A DNA stretch of 64,000 bases from Candidatus Gastranaerophilales bacterium (GTDB lineage Bacteria; Cyanobacteriota; Vampirovibrionia; Gastranaerophilales; Gastranaerophilaceae), in NCBI GenBank assembly GCA_944322545.1, contig CALUPF010000043.1, positions 1 to 64,000 on the forward strand, read 5' to 3'. The notes under the pieces were generated by a model that did no database searches, was not told where the DNA came from, and saw nothing but the letters and a program-made list of their open reading frames with translations. Positions 310 through 63,273 of the stretch are shown here, piece after piece (position 1 is the stretch's first letter; the number at the start of each line of letters is the position of its first letter). A program made the position numbers and the translations under genes.

Positions 310-2085
310 CTACAATAAAAACTTATCATTTCTAACTATTTCAATACAATCACCTGTTTCATCGTTTATTGCAGTTATAACGACATTTTTTCCACCAACC
401 ATAAAATCTGTATGAGCAGTAGATTGATTTATTTTTTCATCTTTCAGGTATTGTTGGAGTTTATCATATGAATCTATCTCAGAAGCACCCTTTACTGAAT
501 CAGGATAAGCATTACCCAAAGCTAAGTGTGATGATGCATTTTCATCTAGCAAGATATTATTGAATAACCTATTCATCTTTTCAATAGGAGAATCTGCAAC
601 AATTGCAACTTCACCTAATCTATCAGCATTTTCATGCGTTGAAATGTATTCTTTCAATACATCTTCGTTTTCACTAGCCTTAGAAGACACAACTTTTCCA
701 TCGAGAAATTCAAATTCAATATCTTTTAAAAGATGTCCATTCAAAGAAAGAGATTTAGTTGATCTTATTTTGCCTTGAGCTGAATCTGATAGAGGTGCAG
801 TAAATACCTCCTCACTAGGAACATTTGCAATAGTAATATGGTTAAATTTAGGTTTATCAAAAAGAGCTGTTTTAAAAACTGATTTTGGTGACATAGTCAC
901 TTTAAAATCCGTAATTCCATCAGGTTTTTGAGTTTTAGGATCTATGCTAACATAGTGAAAAGTTCTATATCCATCTTCTAATAATTTATTTAACTTATCA
1001 GCTCTATACTCTAAATTAGCAATATGTTCTTTTAAGTGTCCAACTCTATTTATTTTGCCAGCATCTTGATAAGCTTTAGCAATTAGTTTTAACTTATCAT
1101 CAGCAAACTCAGGATAGGCAGATACTGAAGATTTTGTCGTCGGAACATAATATACAGACCAAGGCAAATCTTGTGACATTTGAGAATTAGCAATATTATA
1201 TTCTTCGCTACTATTTAAAGCTTTTGAACGTCTGGAGATTCTTTCTTGAGAAATAAAATCACCTCTACTTGGATCAGGACCATATAAAGTAAGTTGAGCG
1301 ATATCTTTATCTAAATGTTCTTTCGCTTCACTTAAATAGTAATTAGGAAGCCTATCTAAAACTTCTTCATCGGCATATAACAACATATTCCTGCTATTAG
1401 CATTTGGGATGTAGGTATCTACAACATCTGTTTTATTTTTAGAATATAAATACTGCATTAATTTTTTCACAATAGGAATATGTTCACGCTCTGCTATTAT
1501 TTGCACAGGCTGACCTTTATGAAGATCTAATGCATCAATAAATATTTCTTTAGGATTAACTTTGAATAATTTTGTTATGCTGGGAGGAAGCTTAGTATAA
1601 CTTTTTAAATACAGCTCTTTAGCTTCAATTTTCATTACCTTAGCTTTTTTATATGGGTCATTATCCTGATTAAATTCAAAAAATAATGCACCATCTTTTT
1701 TAAGATCGTCAATTCTTAATTTTGTATAATCAAGCGTTTGAGTTTTATTATGTCTTTTTTTCAAAGCTTCCAAAGACTCTTCCATAACATCCATTTCAAC
1801 AATACCTGAATGTAGTTTATATGCTTCTTTGCTAAGAATTTCCATAAACGGTAAATAATAAGAATCTCCCTTAATATAAACAGGTTGTCCCTTTTTTAGC
1901 CCACTATCTTTCAACAAATTAACAGCATAATCGGTTAATCTTTGTTCAACAGGAACAGACGATCTTCTTGCAGTAAAACTAATCATATCAGACTTCAAAT
2001 TATTAAGTTTTGGCAAGAAATCTCTATGACTAATATTCTCATTTTTACTTTTATAATTAAAAAGATTAATCGGACTAATCTGCAT
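310..2085 (-). CDS. M29-family metalloaminopeptidase (AmpS-like) with N-terminal tag extension
   Basis: This is a 591-residue protein whose body matches M29 (AmpS/thermophilic) aminopeptidases, which remove N-terminal residues from peptides using a two-metal centre. The family's early segment is seen around residues 47-110 (a GLKKGQPVYIKGDSYYLPF-type stretch). The C-terminal half carries the conserved LGEVAIV Glu, the HLALGNAY His and the STAHTDFMVGG His/Asp expected to bind metal. M29 enzymes usually have about 370-420 residues, so this one is long. The excess includes about 45 residues at the N-terminus, starting MQISPI and containing ISFTAR at residues 35-40, a motif shared with other proteins here. 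Start ATG at 2085 has an upstream AGGAG. The peptidase assignment is firm; whether it is cytosolic or anchored is unknown. Confidence 0.85.
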   Translation of the reverse strand: MQISPINLFNYKSKNENISHRDFLPKLNNLKSDMISFTARRSSVPVEQRLTDYAVNLLKDSGLKKGQPVYIKGDSYYLPFMEILSKEAYKLHSGIVEMDVMEESLEALKKRHNKTQTLDYTKLRIDDLKKDGALFFEFNQDNDPYKKAKVMKIEAKELYLKSYTKLPPSITKLFKVNPKEIFIDALDLHKGQPVQIIAEREHIPIVKKLMQYLYSKNKTDVVDTYIPNANSRNMLLYADEEVLDRLPNYYLSEAKEHLDKDIAQLTLYGPDPSRGDFISQERISRRSKALNSSEEYNIANSQMSQDLPWSVYYVPTTKSSVSAYPEFADDKLKLIAKAYQDAGKINRVGHLKEHIANLEYRADKLNKLLEDGYRTFHYVSIDPKTQKPDGITDFKVTMSPKSVFKTALFDKPKFNHITIANVPSEEVFTAPLSDSAQGKIRSTKSLSLNGHLLKDIEFEFLDGKVVSSKASENEDVLKEYISTHENADRLGEVAIVADSPIEKMNRLFNNILLDENASSHLALGNAYPDSVKGASEIDSYDKLQQYLKDEKINQSTAHTDFMVGGKNVVITAINDETGDCIEIVRNDKFLL

Positions 2086-10962: not shown

Positions 10963-13407
<2,445 letters not shown>

Positions 13408-13534: not shown

Positions 13535-14788
13535 ATGAAAATATCTACGAACATTAATAACACAATGCAAAATAAAATGAACAAGAATCAATATTCGGTT
13601 TCATTTAAAGGCTATAGAATGAATATGCTTAAACAAGCAGTAAAAAAAACTAATGAAATAGGCAATTATGATTTTACGACTACCGTGTCTTATTATCTTG
13701 ATTTACCAACAAAAAATATAGATAAATACGCAACTAGACTTAAAAGATACAAAATGGATTTAATGTACAATCTTGCTTCTAAATTCTATTTTGAAAAATC
13801 TAAAATGAGTATGGATATTCAAAATAAAGCAAAAAATACCTTATTCAATATTTATGAAAAAGTCAAAAACCCACAAAATATCCATAACAAACTAATTAAC
13901 AGCAGTTTAAACTTCGAAGAAATTGATAATATCATTAATATTGCAGGTAATGATAAAAAGCAGCTTTCATTAATACAAAATCTGCTTAATATAGCAGATT
14001 ATCAAAAAGGAAAATATCAATTGAATTATAAAGAAATGAAAGACTTCTTATCAAGCCCACAACACGAAACAATTTCAAAAAATTTCGACAAATACAAATC
14101 ATTTTTAATTCTCAACAAAGATAAAGAAAATATCGTTGAACTATTAGAAAAAGAAATCCAAAAAGGATATAATGCAAAATATTTCGATGGTAAGTTAAAA
14201 ATAAACGATGTAATTGAAAATAGTTCTGTGCTTAAAAAGCTGAATAAAGAAGAACTTTTGAAGTATTATAGTGAACCAGGTTTAAATTTATTAGAAAAAA
14301 TTGATGAACTATATGCAGCAACAAAACAAAATGAACGACTAGAAATAGAAAATCAAACAGGTTTATTGCATGCAATATATAATTCAACAACAAACAAAAA
14401 CAAAGATATAAGAGAAAAAATTATTGATGTCGCGATAAAAAGGTTACCTTTCGAAGATAGAATGACTGAAGCACCTCTTGAATCTGTTTACAATATTTTT
14501 AATATAATAAACCAAAACGAAAAAGCTAATCAGTTTGTAAATACAGTTATTGAAAAAGACTACAACTTAATTTCTATAAAAAACCTAGAAGATAGCATTT
14601 TAAAAAGTGATCTAGATCTTGTAAAAAAATATCCTCAAGAAGCTAGAATTTATTTCCTACAAAACAATTCAACAGTTGGCTTCAGCAAAAAGCAAATTGA
14701 AGATATACAAAAACAAATTAAAGAAACAGCTGAAGAAAACTACACACCAACATTTAAAGATAAAATCACACGCTTATTTACTAAATAG
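13535..14788 (+). CDS. FKG-tagged helical protein, unknown function
   Basis: A 417-residue protein with no family I recognise. It begins MKISTN and carries VSFKGYRMN at residues 22-30, the N-terminal motif shared with several other proteins here. The rest is lysine- and asparagine-rich and looks almost entirely alpha-helical, possibly an armadillo/HEAT-like solenoid (repeated short helix pairs such as EEIDNIINIAGNDKKQLSLIQ... and SVYNIFNIINQNEKANQF). There is no signal peptide, membrane segment or catalytic motif. GAGGGAG lies 5 bases before the ATG. A terminator hairpin follows, so it is probably a single-gene transcript. Confidence 0.7.
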   Translation: MKISTNINNTMQNKMNKNQYSVSFKGYRMNMLKQAVKKTNEIGNYDFTTTVSYYLDLPTKNIDKYATRLKRYKMDLMYNLASKFYFEKSKMSMDIQNKAKNTLFNIYEKVKNPQNIHNKLINSSLNFEEIDNIINIAGNDKKQLSLIQNLLNIADYQKGKYQLNYKEMKDFLSSPQHETISKNFDKYKSFLILNKDKENIVELLEKEIQKGYNAKYFDGKLKINDVIENSSVLKKLNKEELLKYYSEPGLNLLEKIDELYAATKQNERLEIENQTGLLHAIYNSTTNKNKDIREKIIDVAIKRLPFEDRMTEAPLESVYNIFNIINQNEKANQFVNTVIEKDYNLISIKNLEDSILKSDLDLVKKYPQEARIYFLQNNSTVGFSKKQIEDIQKQIKETAEENYTPTFKDKITRLFTK

Positions 14789-14802
14789 ACAAGATACAAA
14801 GA

Positions 14803-14840
14803 CAAAAGTTAACTTCTAATAAAAAGTTAACTTTTGTTTC
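14803..14840 (+). terminator. Long perfect hairpin after the 417-residue gene
   Basis: CAAAAGTTAACTT (14803-14815) pairs perfectly over 13 bases with AAGTTAACTTTTG (14824-14836). The T-tail after the stem is short, so termination is likely but less certain than for the other hairpins. Confidence 0.55.
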
Positions 14841-14889: not shown

Positions 14890-14907
14890 TTGAACGTATT
14901 TGTTCAA
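14890..14907. repeat. Inverted repeat TTGAAC-N6-GTTCAA at the start of the 853-residue gene
   Basis: TTGAAC (14890-14895) and GTTCAA (14902-14907) form a perfect 6-base inverted repeat with a 6-base spacer. It overlaps the longest possible start of the following gene. It resembles a dimeric regulator site, but the spacing differs from the GAAC-N4-GTTC LexA box of Gram-positives, so the binder is unknown. Confidence 0.4.
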
Positions 14908-17461
14908 TAACCCACAAAGGGAAAGAATATATAATAGGTATTTTTTTCAAGTGATTAAAACAAGACAAATTGACATAAAAAATCAATATGGTCTAGAGCG
15001 AAAAGTATTCCACCACAAGCAATTGGAAGTCGGGGATTCGCTCCAAAAAGCGCAATACAATCAAATACAAAATAAATACAACTCAAAACCCTTGCAAGGT
15101 GGCGTACAAACGCAGATATCTTTCAAGGGTTTTAAGCTATCTGCAATCCAAAATTTTTCACAAACAACAATATCCCCAATACCGGAAAAACTAACCCAAA
15201 AAGTATTTGACTCTTTAAAAAGAATAAGCAAAGAACAATATTCGAACTACGATGATATAAGAAAAAAATATGTACAACTCATAAAAACAAATAAGAATGT
15301 TCGAAAAAGCTTGGGTATACCTGAAAAAGTAGTAGAAAAAATATCAGAAGATAATCTTTACTACATTCCACAAAAAAAACTACCATTTAAATTTATTGAA
15401 CAGTTAGTATCTCCAATCACAGGTGTATATAAAAGTATTAAAAAAGTTTTCATATCAAAAGAAAAACTAGCTGAAATAAATAAAAACAAAAAAATAGTCT
15501 CAGACTACTCAGCATTAGAAGGATTAATAAAATCCCATGAAATATGGGAAAATGGCTACAGAAAAACTAGCGGCAATCAAAAATGGACATATGATAGCGA
15601 ATTTTTAATTCCAGATGAAATTTTAGATGGAAAAATTAGTAGAAGAAGAAAAAAATTCGTTGACCCTGAAAAGGGTAAATATTCAATGACATCTTTAATG
15701 CTAGGCAACAGATTTATATCTGGTATTGTATATTCTTATTTTCTAGGAACTGATGCATACAATACAACAATGAGATACAGCAATGACAAGCATGAAGCAA
15801 ATATGCAAAGAACCTCTCGTATTGCGCAAGAATTTTCAAGAATAGGTTTAAGCATGTATATACAAAACCTATTATATGGAACATTTGAAGCAGCTGTAAA
15901 CAAAAGTCTTTCAACAGCATTGTTTGTTTCTGGATCAACTGCTGCATTTTCAGAAATATTAGGAAGAAAATTAGTTGGTAAACCAATTATGCCATCTGAT
16001 AAAGAAACGCTAGATAGACTAGAAAAAGAAATGGCAGAAAAAAAAGGAATTTTACCTGCAATTGGAAGATTATTGACAAATGTCAAGAAAAAGCCAACAA
16101 CTCAAACAAATACAACACAAAATTCAGCAAATAAACAACTACAATTTGCACAATTTGCAGATGTAAAACCTAACGAAAAAACATTTAATGCTTTTTCAAA
16201 AAAGAAAACTGAATCAAAAGCCCCATCATTCAAAGGTTATTTTGAAGTAGAAAAACTTGTAAATAAAAAAGAACTTAAATCGGTTCTTTCTGCTTTACAT
16301 GCTGCAGACTCTCAAGAATACGAAAACATAAAAAAAATCATAACAAAAGCTATTTCTAAATCATTATATTTCCAAAAATTCAAAGATGACATAATAAAAC
16401 AACACCCAGAAAAAGCCAAACTTTTTGAGAATTTAGATGACATATTAAACATTGAAGAGCTAAATAATATACCAATAGGAAAAGAAAAAACAGCATGGGG
16501 ACAATTAACAAAAAGCGTATTCGTCCCGGTAATGTTTGTAAAAAATACAATTCAAAGATTCATTCGTGTTTTTAAAAACATTTATAGACAAGTTACAAAC
16601 AAAACCAACAATGCAATTTTAAAAGAACTCGATAGCATTGCAATTAGCCAAAAACCAAAAGACAAAGAAAAACTTGAAAAATTCAACGCATATTACAAAA
16701 AAAGAATAGAACAAAAAGCATGGAAAAATTCTAGTTTAAGTGATGAAGAAAAAAGAATTAGACTATTTAAAGAATTCAAATCTTTAGCAAACAAAGACGC
16801 TGAAGATATAGAAGGCGCAAAAAATATCCTTTTGTGGATGAGCAATCAAATAAAAAGAGAAAAAATTACTATTCAAAAAGACGGTACACTCTCTGAAAAA
16901 GATGTACAAAAAGTTAAAGAAATAATGAAAAAAGCTGTAATGCTAGCTGACGGATCTAAACATGTTGAATATGACGGAAACACAATAACTCAAACAAATA
17001 TCAACTTATCAAGAGCAATTACAACACTATTTTTGGTAACAGATGCATACAACTTAACAATGCAATACAGTGGCGATAACAGAAAAGATGCGAACAAAAG
17101 TGCTAAAAACAGAGCTGCACAAGAAATTTCAAGAATTAGTGTTTCTGCATATATCATGGCATTTGTTCATAACCTTTTAGGTAAACTATGTAACTCAAGC
17201 CTTGGAGGAGCTTTTGCTTTAACAGCTATGACGTCAACTATTAATGATTCTTTATCAAGAAAAGTAGTAGGTGTTCCGCTAACTGCTAAAAGCCAAGCAG
17301 AGCTAAAAGAAATAGACAAAAATAATCACAAATCTAAAAATCCAATCAAAAAAGCACTTGCATATTCTATTGGTAAAAAAGGTGCAATGCCAACACAACA
17401 AGAAAAAGCAGAAATTAACTACTTTGAAAACAAATTTTTCATACAACCAGAAATAAATTAA
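14900..17461 (+). CDS. Large FKG protein with two duplicated modules
   Basis: An open frame of up to 853 residues, unknown family. ISFKGFK lies at residues 73-79 and a second SFKGY at 443-447. Each is followed 200-270 residues later by a related segment: near residue 284, TDAYNTTMRYS...QEFSRIGLSMYI...GRKLVGKP; near residue 714, TDAYNLTMQYS...QEISRISVSAYI...SRKVVGVP. The protein is thus two diverged copies of one ~380-residue module. Each copy has hydrophobic helices around the TDAYN/SRI region that may contact membrane. The start is doubtful: the longest frame begins at TTG 14900 inside an inverted repeat, without a well-placed Shine-Dalgarno sequence; GTG 14951 is an alternative, and no in-frame ATG occurs until about residue 263. 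Confidence 0.75.
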   Translation: MFNNPQRERIYNRYFFQVIKTRQIDIKNQYGLERKVFHHKQLEVGDSLQKAQYNQIQNKYNSKPLQGGVQTQISFKGFKLSAIQNFSQTTISPIPEKLTQKVFDSLKRISKEQYSNYDDIRKKYVQLIKTNKNVRKSLGIPEKVVEKISEDNLYYIPQKKLPFKFIEQLVSPITGVYKSIKKVFISKEKLAEINKNKKIVSDYSALEGLIKSHEIWENGYRKTSGNQKWTYDSEFLIPDEILDGKISRRRKKFVDPEKGKYSMTSLMLGNRFISGIVYSYFLGTDAYNTTMRYSNDKHEANMQRTSRIAQEFSRIGLSMYIQNLLYGTFEAAVNKSLSTALFVSGSTAAFSEILGRKLVGKPIMPSDKETLDRLEKEMAEKKGILPAIGRLLTNVKKKPTTQTNTTQNSANKQLQFAQFADVKPNEKTFNAFSKKKTESKAPSFKGYFEVEKLVNKKELKSVLSALHAADSQEYENIKKIITKAISKSLYFQKFKDDIIKQHPEKAKLFENLDDILNIEELNNIPIGKEKTAWGQLTKSVFVPVMFVKNTIQRFIRVFKNIYRQVTNKTNNAILKELDSIAISQKPKDKEKLEKFNAYYKKRIEQKAWKNSSLSDEEKRIRLFKEFKSLANKDAEDIEGAKNILLWMSNQIKREKITIQKDGTLSEKDVQKVKEIMKKAVMLADGSKHVEYDGNTITQTNINLSRAITTLFLVTDAYNLTMQYSGDNRKDANKSAKNRAAQEISRISVSAYIMAFVHNLLGKLCNSSLGGAFALTAMTSTINDSLSRKVVGVPLTAKSQAELKEIDKNNHKSKNPIKKALAYSIGKKGAMPTQQEKAEINYFENKFFIQPEIN

Positions 17462-51240: not shown

Positions 51241-51258
51241 TCTTCCACTATTTGTTTT
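51224..51258 (+). terminator. Terminator overlapping the carbonic anhydrase stop codon
   Basis: ATAGTGGAAGA (51226-51236) and TCTTCCACTAT (51241-51251) form a perfect 11-bp stem. The loop CTAA contains the stop codon's TAA, and TTGTTTT follows. Confidence 0.8.
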
Positions 51259-52096
51259 AATTGTGGTTATTATTTTTGTTAGAAAATTTTGACCCCAATG
51301 AGGCACCAATACCAACCCCAAAGACTAAAGCTAGTATTATGTGAGTAATAATATCTTTTTCTAAGTCTCTTGTGTATTCATCGTCTGACTCTTTTTCTAG
51401 ACGACTAAATTCGTCTTCTAATCTTTCTGTGAAAGATTTATTGAGTTCTATTATCTCATTATTTTTTTTATTTATCATATACAACTTATCATTGTGATTT
51501 CTATGAAGAAGAAACTCTTGTCTATCTAATTTTTTATTAGTTGGATCTTGAAGTTGTATATTTATATCTCTTGCCCCATCAATTTTTGCACTAAATTTAT
51601 AAACAGATTCTACTTTATTTTGCTCTGTCTCATTATAAACCTTTGCAACTCCAGTTAATTCTTTAAAATTTTCATCGTTAGATTTCAAGGAAAAATCAAT
51701 TTTCTTATTAGCAAGTACAACAGAAACATCGTAATGATTTTTATCTCTTTTTTCTATTCTTGCACTGTCTGATAAAATCAGGTCAGACAACTGATAATAA
51801 AAAAACTTATCATCTTTTAAAGCTGTATTAAAAGCAGAATCTCTTAACTCGTAGCCCAAATTAGAATCAATCAACTCATTAGTATCTTTTTCAAAAAGTG
51901 ACTCATTAGTAGTATTTGAACTGCAAGATGGTGTCATCGTGGCAATAGCCATTGCTAAGGCCAAAACTTTAGGATCAACTGATTTAATTGATTTTTGTGA
52001 ATTATCATTGTTTAAATTAGGTGTATCATTTTTTTTAGACTTAAAATTTAAAACTTTATTATAAGCTTGAAAATTAGATACTGAAAATACTCTCAT
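51257..52096 (-). CDS. Tagged membrane-associated protein, unknown function
   Basis: A 279-residue protein of unknown family. It begins MRVFSV and has VLNFKSKK at residues 15-22, a variant of the xFKG tag. A hydrophobic stretch (about residues 44-57, LALAMAIATMTPSC) ends in a Cys with only a weak lipobox resemblance. A charged beta-rich middle follows, and a C-terminal membrane helix (about 253-268, ITHIILALVFGVGIGASLG) precedes a basic tail. The export-signal-like segment lies behind the tag rather than at the N-terminus, which is unusual. AAGGA precedes the ATG. Confidence 0.7.
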   Translation of the reverse strand: MRVFSVSNFQAYNKVLNFKSKKNDTPNLNNDNSQKSIKSVDPKVLALAMAIATMTPSCSSNTTNESLFEKDTNELIDSNLGYELRDSAFNTALKDDKFFYYQLSDLILSDSARIEKRDKNHYDVSVVLANKKIDFSLKSNDENFKELTGVAKVYNETEQNKVESVYKFSAKIDGARDINIQLQDPTNKKLDRQEFLLHRNHNDKLYMINKKNNEIIELNKSFTERLEDEFSRLEKESDDEYTRDLEKDIITHIILALVFGVGIGASLGSKFSNKNNNHN

Positions 52097-62167: not shown

Positions 62168-62779
62168 TTAATTCAATTTTACAAAATCAGGAACAACATT
62201 TTTTGCCGCTTTAAGTTTGGTATATTGTTGCTTTAATTTTTCTTTTTCCGCTGGAGTTGCATTTTTAGCTTTATCATTCATTTGGTTATACAATTCTGTT
62301 TCTACAGCATTTTCCCTGATATAAACGTCCATATCTTTACCTTTTTTAAAGGTATTAATTTTGGCATTATACATAGCTTTAGGAGCATTGTAAACTGTAT
62401 AACCCAATGCTATTAAAGCAACAAAACCAGCAATCACTGCAATAGGTCCACCTATTTTTTGAGCAATTGTCAACTTTTCACCTGGCTTCATTGCTCTTTT
62501 TTGTATTTTTTGTGAAACCTTTCCCGCCATTTCACCTATAAATTGTGCGCCATCCCCATCATCAGCAACTGCAGCTAAAAGACGAAGACCAAAATACAAT
62601 CCTGCAACAGCAGTTGCCAACAATGCATTTGAACGTTCTCCAGTTTTTTTAATAGGATTTTTGTCATATACTGGCTTTTTTAAAGCATTATCATTTCTTT
62701 TTTTAGCTTGATTATCTGCTTTTGATTGTTCAGCCTTAAAAGCCACTAAATAACTATTATTTAATGGTAAAACTCTCAT
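62168..62779 (-). CDS. Tagged two-helix membrane protein (paralogue A)
   Basis: A 203-residue protein of unknown family. It begins MRVLPLNN and has VAFKAEQ at residues 12-18, a variant of the xFKG tag. A basic linker then leads to two hydrophobic segments (about 54-70, ALLATAVAGLYFGLRLLAA, and about 109-130, GGPIAVIAGFVALIALGYTV). A charged helical C-terminus ends VPDFVKLN. The NPIKKTGERSNALLAT and NTFKKGKDMDVYIRE segments match NPISRNKEKALATLS and NAFAREKEMAVFSRD in the next upstream gene, showing the two are paralogues 14 bases apart. Confidence 0.7.
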   Translation of the reverse strand: MRVLPLNNSYLVAFKAEQSKADNQAKKRNDNALKKPVYDKNPIKKTGERSNALLATAVAGLYFGLRLLAAVADDGDGAQFIGEMAGKVSQKIQKRAMKPGEKLTIAQKIGGPIAVIAGFVALIALGYTVYNAPKAMYNAKINTFKKGKDMDVYIRENAVETELYNQMNDKAKNATPAEKEKLKQQYTKLKAAKNVVPDFVKLN

Positions 62780-62793
62780 TTTTTAGATTTACT

Positions 62794-63273
62794 CTATTTT
62801 TGTACCAACAATGTTTGTGCTTTATTAGCCATTTGAAGTTTCAAATTATCATCCAATTTTTTATCTAATGAAACTTCTGGATCCAAAACTTCTTTATGAA
62901 CTTCTTCTGTCAAAGAAGATTTAAGTTCCTTATCTCTAGAAAAAACAGCCATTTCTTTTTCACGAGCAAAAGCATTTACAGCTGTATTATACAATTTTGA
63001 AGGTAGTGTTAATGCAGCAGTAACAACTGCGGCTGCAGCACCAATTAAAGCAGATTTTTTAGCACCAATTTTTAAAGTAGTAGCTAAACCTGCAACAATA
63101 GCGCCTAAGACAACAGAGCCACCAACTACTGACAATGTAGCTAAAGCTTTTTCTTTGTTTCTTGAAATAGGATTTTCATACTTCGGAACACTTGTTTTAT
63201 CTGCTTCCTGATTATCTTGAGCAAAGCTAACTTTTGAAGCAGAATTTAATAGACTTAAACCTCTTACATTCAT
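62794..63273 (-). CDS. Tagged two-helix membrane protein (paralogue B)
   Basis: A 159-residue protein of unknown family. It begins MNVRGLSLLN and has KVSFAQD at residues 14-20, matching the tag position of its neighbour. Two Gly/Ala-rich hydrophobic segments (about 46-66, LSVVGGSVVLGAIVAGLATT, and about 72-92, ALIGAAAAVVTAALTLPSK) precede a charged helical tail. It is a shorter, diverged paralogue of the gene at 62168-62779 and is transcribed with it. Function unknown; topology suggests an inner-membrane hairpin with tag and tail on the same side. Confidence 0.7.
   Translation of the reverse strand: MNVRGLSLLNSASKVSFAQDNQEADKTSVPKYENPISRNKEKALATLSVVGGSVVLGAIVAGLATTLKIGAKKSALIGAAAAVVTAALTLPSKLYNTAVNAFAREKEMAVFSRDKELKSSLTEEVHKEVLDPEVSLDKKLDDNLKLQMANKAQTLLVQK

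Follow-up and report, generated by a model that had tools for sequence, protein, structure and literature searches.

The window analysed here comprises 64,000 nucleotides of a Candidatus Gastranaerophilales genome (assembly GCA_944322545.1, contig CALUPF010000043.1, positions 1 to 64,000 of the forward strand). On its plus strand, an open reading frame at 14900–17461 encodes a protein with two SFKG tags, one following an N-terminal leader and one in the middle of the chain. We refer to this protein and its orthologues as family A; the features of the gene are listed in Table 1. Between positions 10966 and 18949, the gene order is gyrB, a gene for a 417-aa tagged protein, family A, rsmH, and an ftsL-like gene. 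The order family A–rsmH–ftsL is kept in most congeners, not in Ca. Adamsella. An assignment of function from the gene neighbourhood was rejected, as family A lies beside rsmH and ftsL in its genus only. A long AT-rich inverted repeat, ACAAAAGTTAACTT..AAGTTAACTTTTGT, occupies positions 14802–14837, after the 417-aa gene and ahead of family A, and a terminator scan classified it as terminator-like on the minus strand.

Table 1. Features of the family A gene and its tagged neighbour (window coordinates; residues in 836-aa numbering)
Feature	Position	Strand	Evidence
Family A gene, 836 aa, probable GTG start	14951..17461	+	Orthologue start alignment, upstream AGGT; in all 22 congeners
Disordered leader, residues 1-57; conserved QYGLKRK, PL, and IS just before tag	14951..15121	+	Alignment, pLDDT < 50
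Predicted intragenic mRNA hairpin with inner stem	15085..15133	+	Folding energy; 23/23 congeners; third-position covariation across order
Hairpin arms AAAACCCTTG and CAAGGGTTTT	15085-15094, 15124-15133	+	Inverted repeat
N-terminal tag SFKG, residues 57-60	15119..15130	+	S, F, G invariant in 25 orthologues; overlaps hairpin 3' arm
Helical domain 1, residues 61-245	15131..15685	+	AF2 pLDDT ~80-90 over most
Conserved hydrophobic block 1, residues 246-366 (TDAYNTTMRYS ... QEFSRI ... GRKLVGKP)	15686..16048	+	
Hypervariable linker, residues 382-425	16094..16225	+	Mean top-residue fraction 0.47
Internal tag SFKG, residues 426-429	16226..16237	+	Identical in 23/23 congeners, codons vary synonymously
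Helical domain 2, residues 430-672	16238..16966	+	AF2 pLDDT ~70-90
Conserved hydrophobic block 2, residues 676-800 (TDAYNLTMQYS ... QEISRI ... RKVVGVP)	16976..17350	+	
Unrelated upstream gene for a 417-aa protein tagged at residues 22-28 (VSFKGYR)	13535..14788	+	Adjoins family A in many congeners

Start codon and internal repeat

A first-pass annotation of this DNA had described an 853-residue protein, which results if the frame is read from TTG 14900. Frame and end position stand, but the true start is probably GTG 14951, which yields 836 residues, because the frames of orthologues align from a GTG or ATG at about this position and a Shine-Dalgarno-like AGGT lies upstream. Several orthologues have a stop codon shortly 5' of the aligned start. 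The FKG motifs, at residues 75–77 and 444–446 of the longer version, occupy residues 58–60 and 427–429 in the 836-aa numbering used below. Leader indels among orthologues are multiples of three, and we therefore consider the leader to be coding. A start codon downstream of the hairpin was rejected for the same reason and because none is conserved there. Two further short motifs are fixed in family A, namely N...F..F, which just precedes the internal tag (residues 408–415), and, at the extreme C-terminus, NxFFIxPEIN.

The same annotation had proposed two tagged modules fused in tandem, and both FKG motifs and every sequence block quoted for it were found at the places given. The repeat is real. 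Self-alignment of the two halves scored 203, as compared to a mean of 46.8 (sd 7.1, maximum 75) for 500 shuffled sequences, and a profile–profile comparison of the modules, begun at the tags, was colinear over 300 columns with E = 1e-21. The strongest likeness resides in the C-terminal blocks of the two halves (residues ~246–366 versus ~676–800). Between tag and block, the helical domains show only weak similarity (E = 0.0011, profile–profile) but share the order of their secondary-structure elements in the AlphaFold2 model.

Distribution and duplication history

Searches of Pfam, NCBIfam, PHROGs, PDB sequences, and PDB folds gave no significant match to the protein, and the family is unnamed in these libraries. 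Family A has an orthologue in all 22 congeners examined. A related protein, designated family B, occurs in genomes across the order; it has 1004 aa in this genome and mostly 740–970 elsewhere, and no conserved neighbours across genera. A profile of the C-terminal block, used in a search whose first look is loose and which could miss very distant relatives, matched 169/289 genomes of a class sample and 118/292 of a phylum sample, all of them in Gastranaerophilales. Within the searches made, the family thus appears confined to this order. Some genera gave no block matches although their genomes are 99% complete. The genera g36 and g37 have no family members, and g36 still has tagged proteins. 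Some genera have an expanded family, with three to six paralogues of the double-block type in a genome (G209, G266, and G211).

The number of block matches per genome was even in all but two of the 169 genomes, and the two odd cases lie at contig ends. Essentially every complete member possesses both module copies. A separate single-module gene was not found in any genome examined. Two candidates for natural single-module genes, in G142 and G055, were rejected, as the assemblies contain N at the apparent break. In a tree of 95 blocks, first and second copies formed separate clades (support 100/99), each comprising both A and B sequences. Because of this topology, we conclude that the tree records one duplication, older than both the divergence of A from B and the order's spread.

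Structure prediction

The AlphaFold2 model of the whole protein had a mean pLDDT of 59.7. It contained two confident helical domains (residues ~65–240 and ~430–670); the leader and the linker were disordered, and both hydrophobic blocks were modelled with poor confidence. Module 1 modelled alone with 50 alignment rows reached 71.8. Both tags fall where disordered sequence gives way to a folded domain, in marginal regions that the models predict with low confidence. Each block consists of three charge-depleted helices, in which N, Q, S, and R are invariant and D and G near-invariant. Across the family, the charge-depleted stretches span about 13, 14, and 18 columns and are of low hydropathy. 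In the protein studied here, the best 19-residue means of 0.8–1.4 are borderline for membrane spans. The lack of charges in these helices suggests that the protein is likely membrane-associated.

Codon constraint and RNA structure at the N-terminal tag

The codons encoding the N-terminal PL...SFKG are nearly fixed. TTC, AAG, GGT, CCC, and TTG were present in every congener sequence retaining the respective residue, whereas the top codon at conserved residues elsewhere in the gene had a mean share of 0.65. The constraint arises from the inverted repeat AAAACCCTTG / CAAGGGTTTT, which is predicted to fold into a hairpin (dG –23.1 kcal/mol, z –4.4) some 140 nt after the start of the coding sequence. 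In all 23 congeners (23/23), the FKG codons form the 3' arm and pair with the upstream Pro-Leu codons. Elsewhere in the order, the same codons pair through other bases, as in ACCTTTAAA/TTTAAAGGT, GCCCTTAAA/TTTAAGGGC, CCCCTTAAA/TTTAAGGGG, and others. Among 31 diverse genes, three synonymous third-position pairs were of the Watson-Crick type in 28/31, 30/31, and 30/31 cases, as compared to means of 14.2, 15.5, and 24.8 in shuffles, which ignore relatedness. On the tree, the pair type must have changed at least 11 times for the first of them and at least 6 times for the second. Even missense changes were compensated: Leu to Ser coincided with Lys to Glu, and G·U pairs accommodated the replacement of Lys by Gly or Glu. 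The stems comprised 9–19 bp, with z values of –2 to –6 relative to synonymous shuffles in 30/31 genes, the exception being locus L039. This covariation shows selection for a predicted RNA structure at the N-terminal motif, and the G·U pairs speak for RNA rather than a DNA site. The first-pass annotation had read the N-terminal FKG as a peptide tag. Its invariance does not count as evidence for the peptide alone, because the codons constitute the conserved hairpin arm.

The 12 nt on the 3' side of the stem are rich in T (mean 6.6 versus about 3.1), and a clean, terminator-like T-run follows the stem in about half of the genes only. A terminator scan with a loop limit of 8 did not list the hairpin, and Rfam contained no match to it. 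Where the stem pattern is present in congener genomes, it occurs once or twice, one instance being the family A copy; no other coding-sequence hairpin carrying PL..FKG was found in the sampled stretches. As neither the internal tags nor most other tagged genes have such a stem, we rejected the hairpin as a general trait of tagged genes. Moreover, in divergent paralogues, [IVL][SN]FxG is retained at this position although the hairpin is missing. Taken together, these comparisons indicate that peptide and hairpin are separable layers. The leader alignment contains two additional stems at window positions ~14960–15065, ATTGA/TCAAT and AGCGAA/TTCGCT. Both are confined to the genus, and the Ser codon TCG of the latter is retained in 21/22 sequences.

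The internal tag

The internal SFKG was identical in 23/23 congeners, in which its four positions are encoded by 4, 2, 2, and 4 different codons, respectively, and the surrounding linker is hypervariable (mean top-residue fraction 0.47 in the 23 congeners). Fixed residues with varying codons in such a linker strongly support peptide-level selection on a short linear motif. The notion that the tag was retained where it cannot act as an N-terminus is thereby borne out.

At the same site of family B, [ST]Fx[GA] was present in 14/32 sequences, as compared to 1.6 in shuffles, and looser forms such as AFKA were common. In part of family B, the internal motif is missing or degenerate and the fusion is kept. 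N-terminally, the motif occurred in 8/9 members of family A and 22/32 of family B; behind block 1, it occurred in 9/9 and 14/32, respectively, as compared to 0.3–1.6 in shuffles throughout. It was absent from the C-terminal tail and near background in the helical domains. That the tag was copied along with the module, as had been proposed, is the simplest reading of this pattern. It is unproven, since the motif also resides on many unrelated proteins, so that two independent gains are conceivable.

The tag on other proteins

In a survey based on simple ORF calls on genome samples, FKG was about three to four times denser at residues 5–40 than past residue 80 in ~460 kb of the genome studied here. 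This N-terminal enrichment was clear in this genome and weak or absent in samples of some other genera. A family of amidohydrolases (L233–L247; about 11 loci, ten from this genus) carries [SN]FKG directly before strand 1 (KIIDSHTH), with freely varying leaders and codons and with one FKR and one FRG among the loci. The family of the 417-aa neighbour also has the tag behind a freely varying leader; its orthologues in the genus, at ~30% identity, keep MxI..I plus [SA]FK[GS]. The tag was furthermore detected in a genus that has neither family A nor family B, and some tags begin as early as residue 3–8. This occurrence on the amidohydrolase, on the 417-aa family, and in a genus lacking A and B indicates, at the level of sequence comparison, that the motif is an addition to unrelated proteins. 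The literature searched yielded no publications on an FxG motif. Prepilin-type processing between KG and F was rejected, as no hydrophobic helix follows the tag.

Discussion

Our preferred reading, to which we assign a probability of roughly 55%, is that of a two-module pseudo-dimer, perhaps membrane-associated, with [S/T]FxG as a docking motif and a regulatory mRNA hairpin. One ancient internal tandem duplication produced this lineage-specific protein. In each module, a disordered leader or linker ending in [S/T]FxG leads into a helical domain, which is followed by a hydrophobic block of three helices with the invariant polar residues D..N, Q, N.S, R, and G. Because both modules are kept in one chain, an obligate pseudo-dimer is most likely, perhaps tied to or embedded in the membrane. 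FxG may be a peptide read by a putative partner common to many tagged proteins of these bacteria. It would function without a free N-terminus, so that two copies may provide two docking points. The hairpin most likely limits or times expression, either by transcription attenuation or by a translational pause. A broader proposal, an order-wide docking or sorting code of [S/T/N]FxG used N-terminally, internally, and in tandem, with the hairpin in the tag codons, preserved by compensatory synonymous and missense changes, setting the expression of the principal two-module client, is considerably less probable.

The position of both tags at the border of a disordered stretch and a folded domain, the hypervariable leaders and linker, and the amidohydrolase tag abutting the first strand would also suit a processing site, at which a protease removes the leader and parts the modules like a small polyprotein. 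However, the modules are never encoded apart in the genomes examined, family B has loosened its internal motif while the fusion stays, and tags starting at residue 3–8 would lose almost nothing on cutting. Thus, we regard processing as unlikely, including the cleavage site between the modules that the first-pass annotation had offered as an option. We judge it just as improbable that the N-terminal FKG is a mere by-product of the hairpin and the internal FKG separate and unrelated. The almost invariant N-terminal codons, unlike the remainder of the gene, and the replacement of Lys by Glu or Gly where pairing survives through G·U or a compensatory Leu-to-Ser change are in line with this explanation, but the motif also occurs where no hairpin is present, in the divergent paralogues and in other proteins. 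FKG as an N-terminal cap or strand of each module's fold, another of the earlier options, is very unlikely: in both modules, and likewise in unrelated tagged proteins, it stands immediately ahead of the first helix or strand, but model confidence is low at both motifs and the folds that follow are unrelated, including that of the amidohydrolase.

Returning to the pseudo-dimer with docking motif and hairpin, its elements have counterparts in known systems. Transporters with tandem repeats are internally duplicated membrane proteins. Like them, family A has two homologous halves in one chain, hydrophobic helices, and conserved polar residues; unlike them, it has no detectable relation to a solved or named family, and its membrane location is predicted. 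In leaders, intrinsic terminators and attenuators are built from a stable stem close to the 5' end with a U-rich stretch behind it. The hairpin resembles them in its stem and in the U-rich stretch that often comes after it, but it lies in continuously open coding sequence, has a large apical part, and has a good U-tract in only about half of the cases. Rickettsia palindromic elements of ~150 bp are inserted in many unrelated genes (PMC10969869). Both they and the hairpin are palindromes translated in frame inside a coding gene, whereas the hairpin, in contrast to these and to MITE-like coding insertions, resides at one fixed site in one protein family. mRNA-programmed translation pauses are described for membrane protein genes (PMC4359368). 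As in our case, where the protein may be a membrane protein, the element is encoded in the RNA and lies near the beginning of the coding sequence; the element in family A differs in being a predicted hairpin. Internal duplication and coding-region RNA structure are thus known kinds of feature, and their combination here is new to us.

The non-photosynthetic gut cyanobacteria of this order have hardly been studied at the molecular level. A doubled family restricted to the order, together with a motif on unrelated proteins, may point to an unknown process of protein sorting or assembly. The hairpin represents a clean case of RNA pairing constraining amino acids, as seen in the Leu-Ser and Lys-Glu co-change. 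Part of an apparent protein tag seems to double as a signal in the messenger RNA, and motif conservation should not be read as protein function without a codon check.

Tag-like N termini in the window

Several other proteins encoded in the window begin with sequences reminiscent of the tag. An M29 metallopeptidase (310–2085, minus strand) has a tag-like N-terminal extension, MQISPIN...MISFTAR, in place of which a distant relative (L204) has TVSFGNN. The proteins encoded at 51257–52096, 62168–62779, and 62794–63273, all on the minus strand, start with MxV..(L/V)..[VL].F[KA], similar to degenerate tags. In the first of these, a hydrophobic, lipobox-like stretch (ATMTPSC) comes after the tag-like start.
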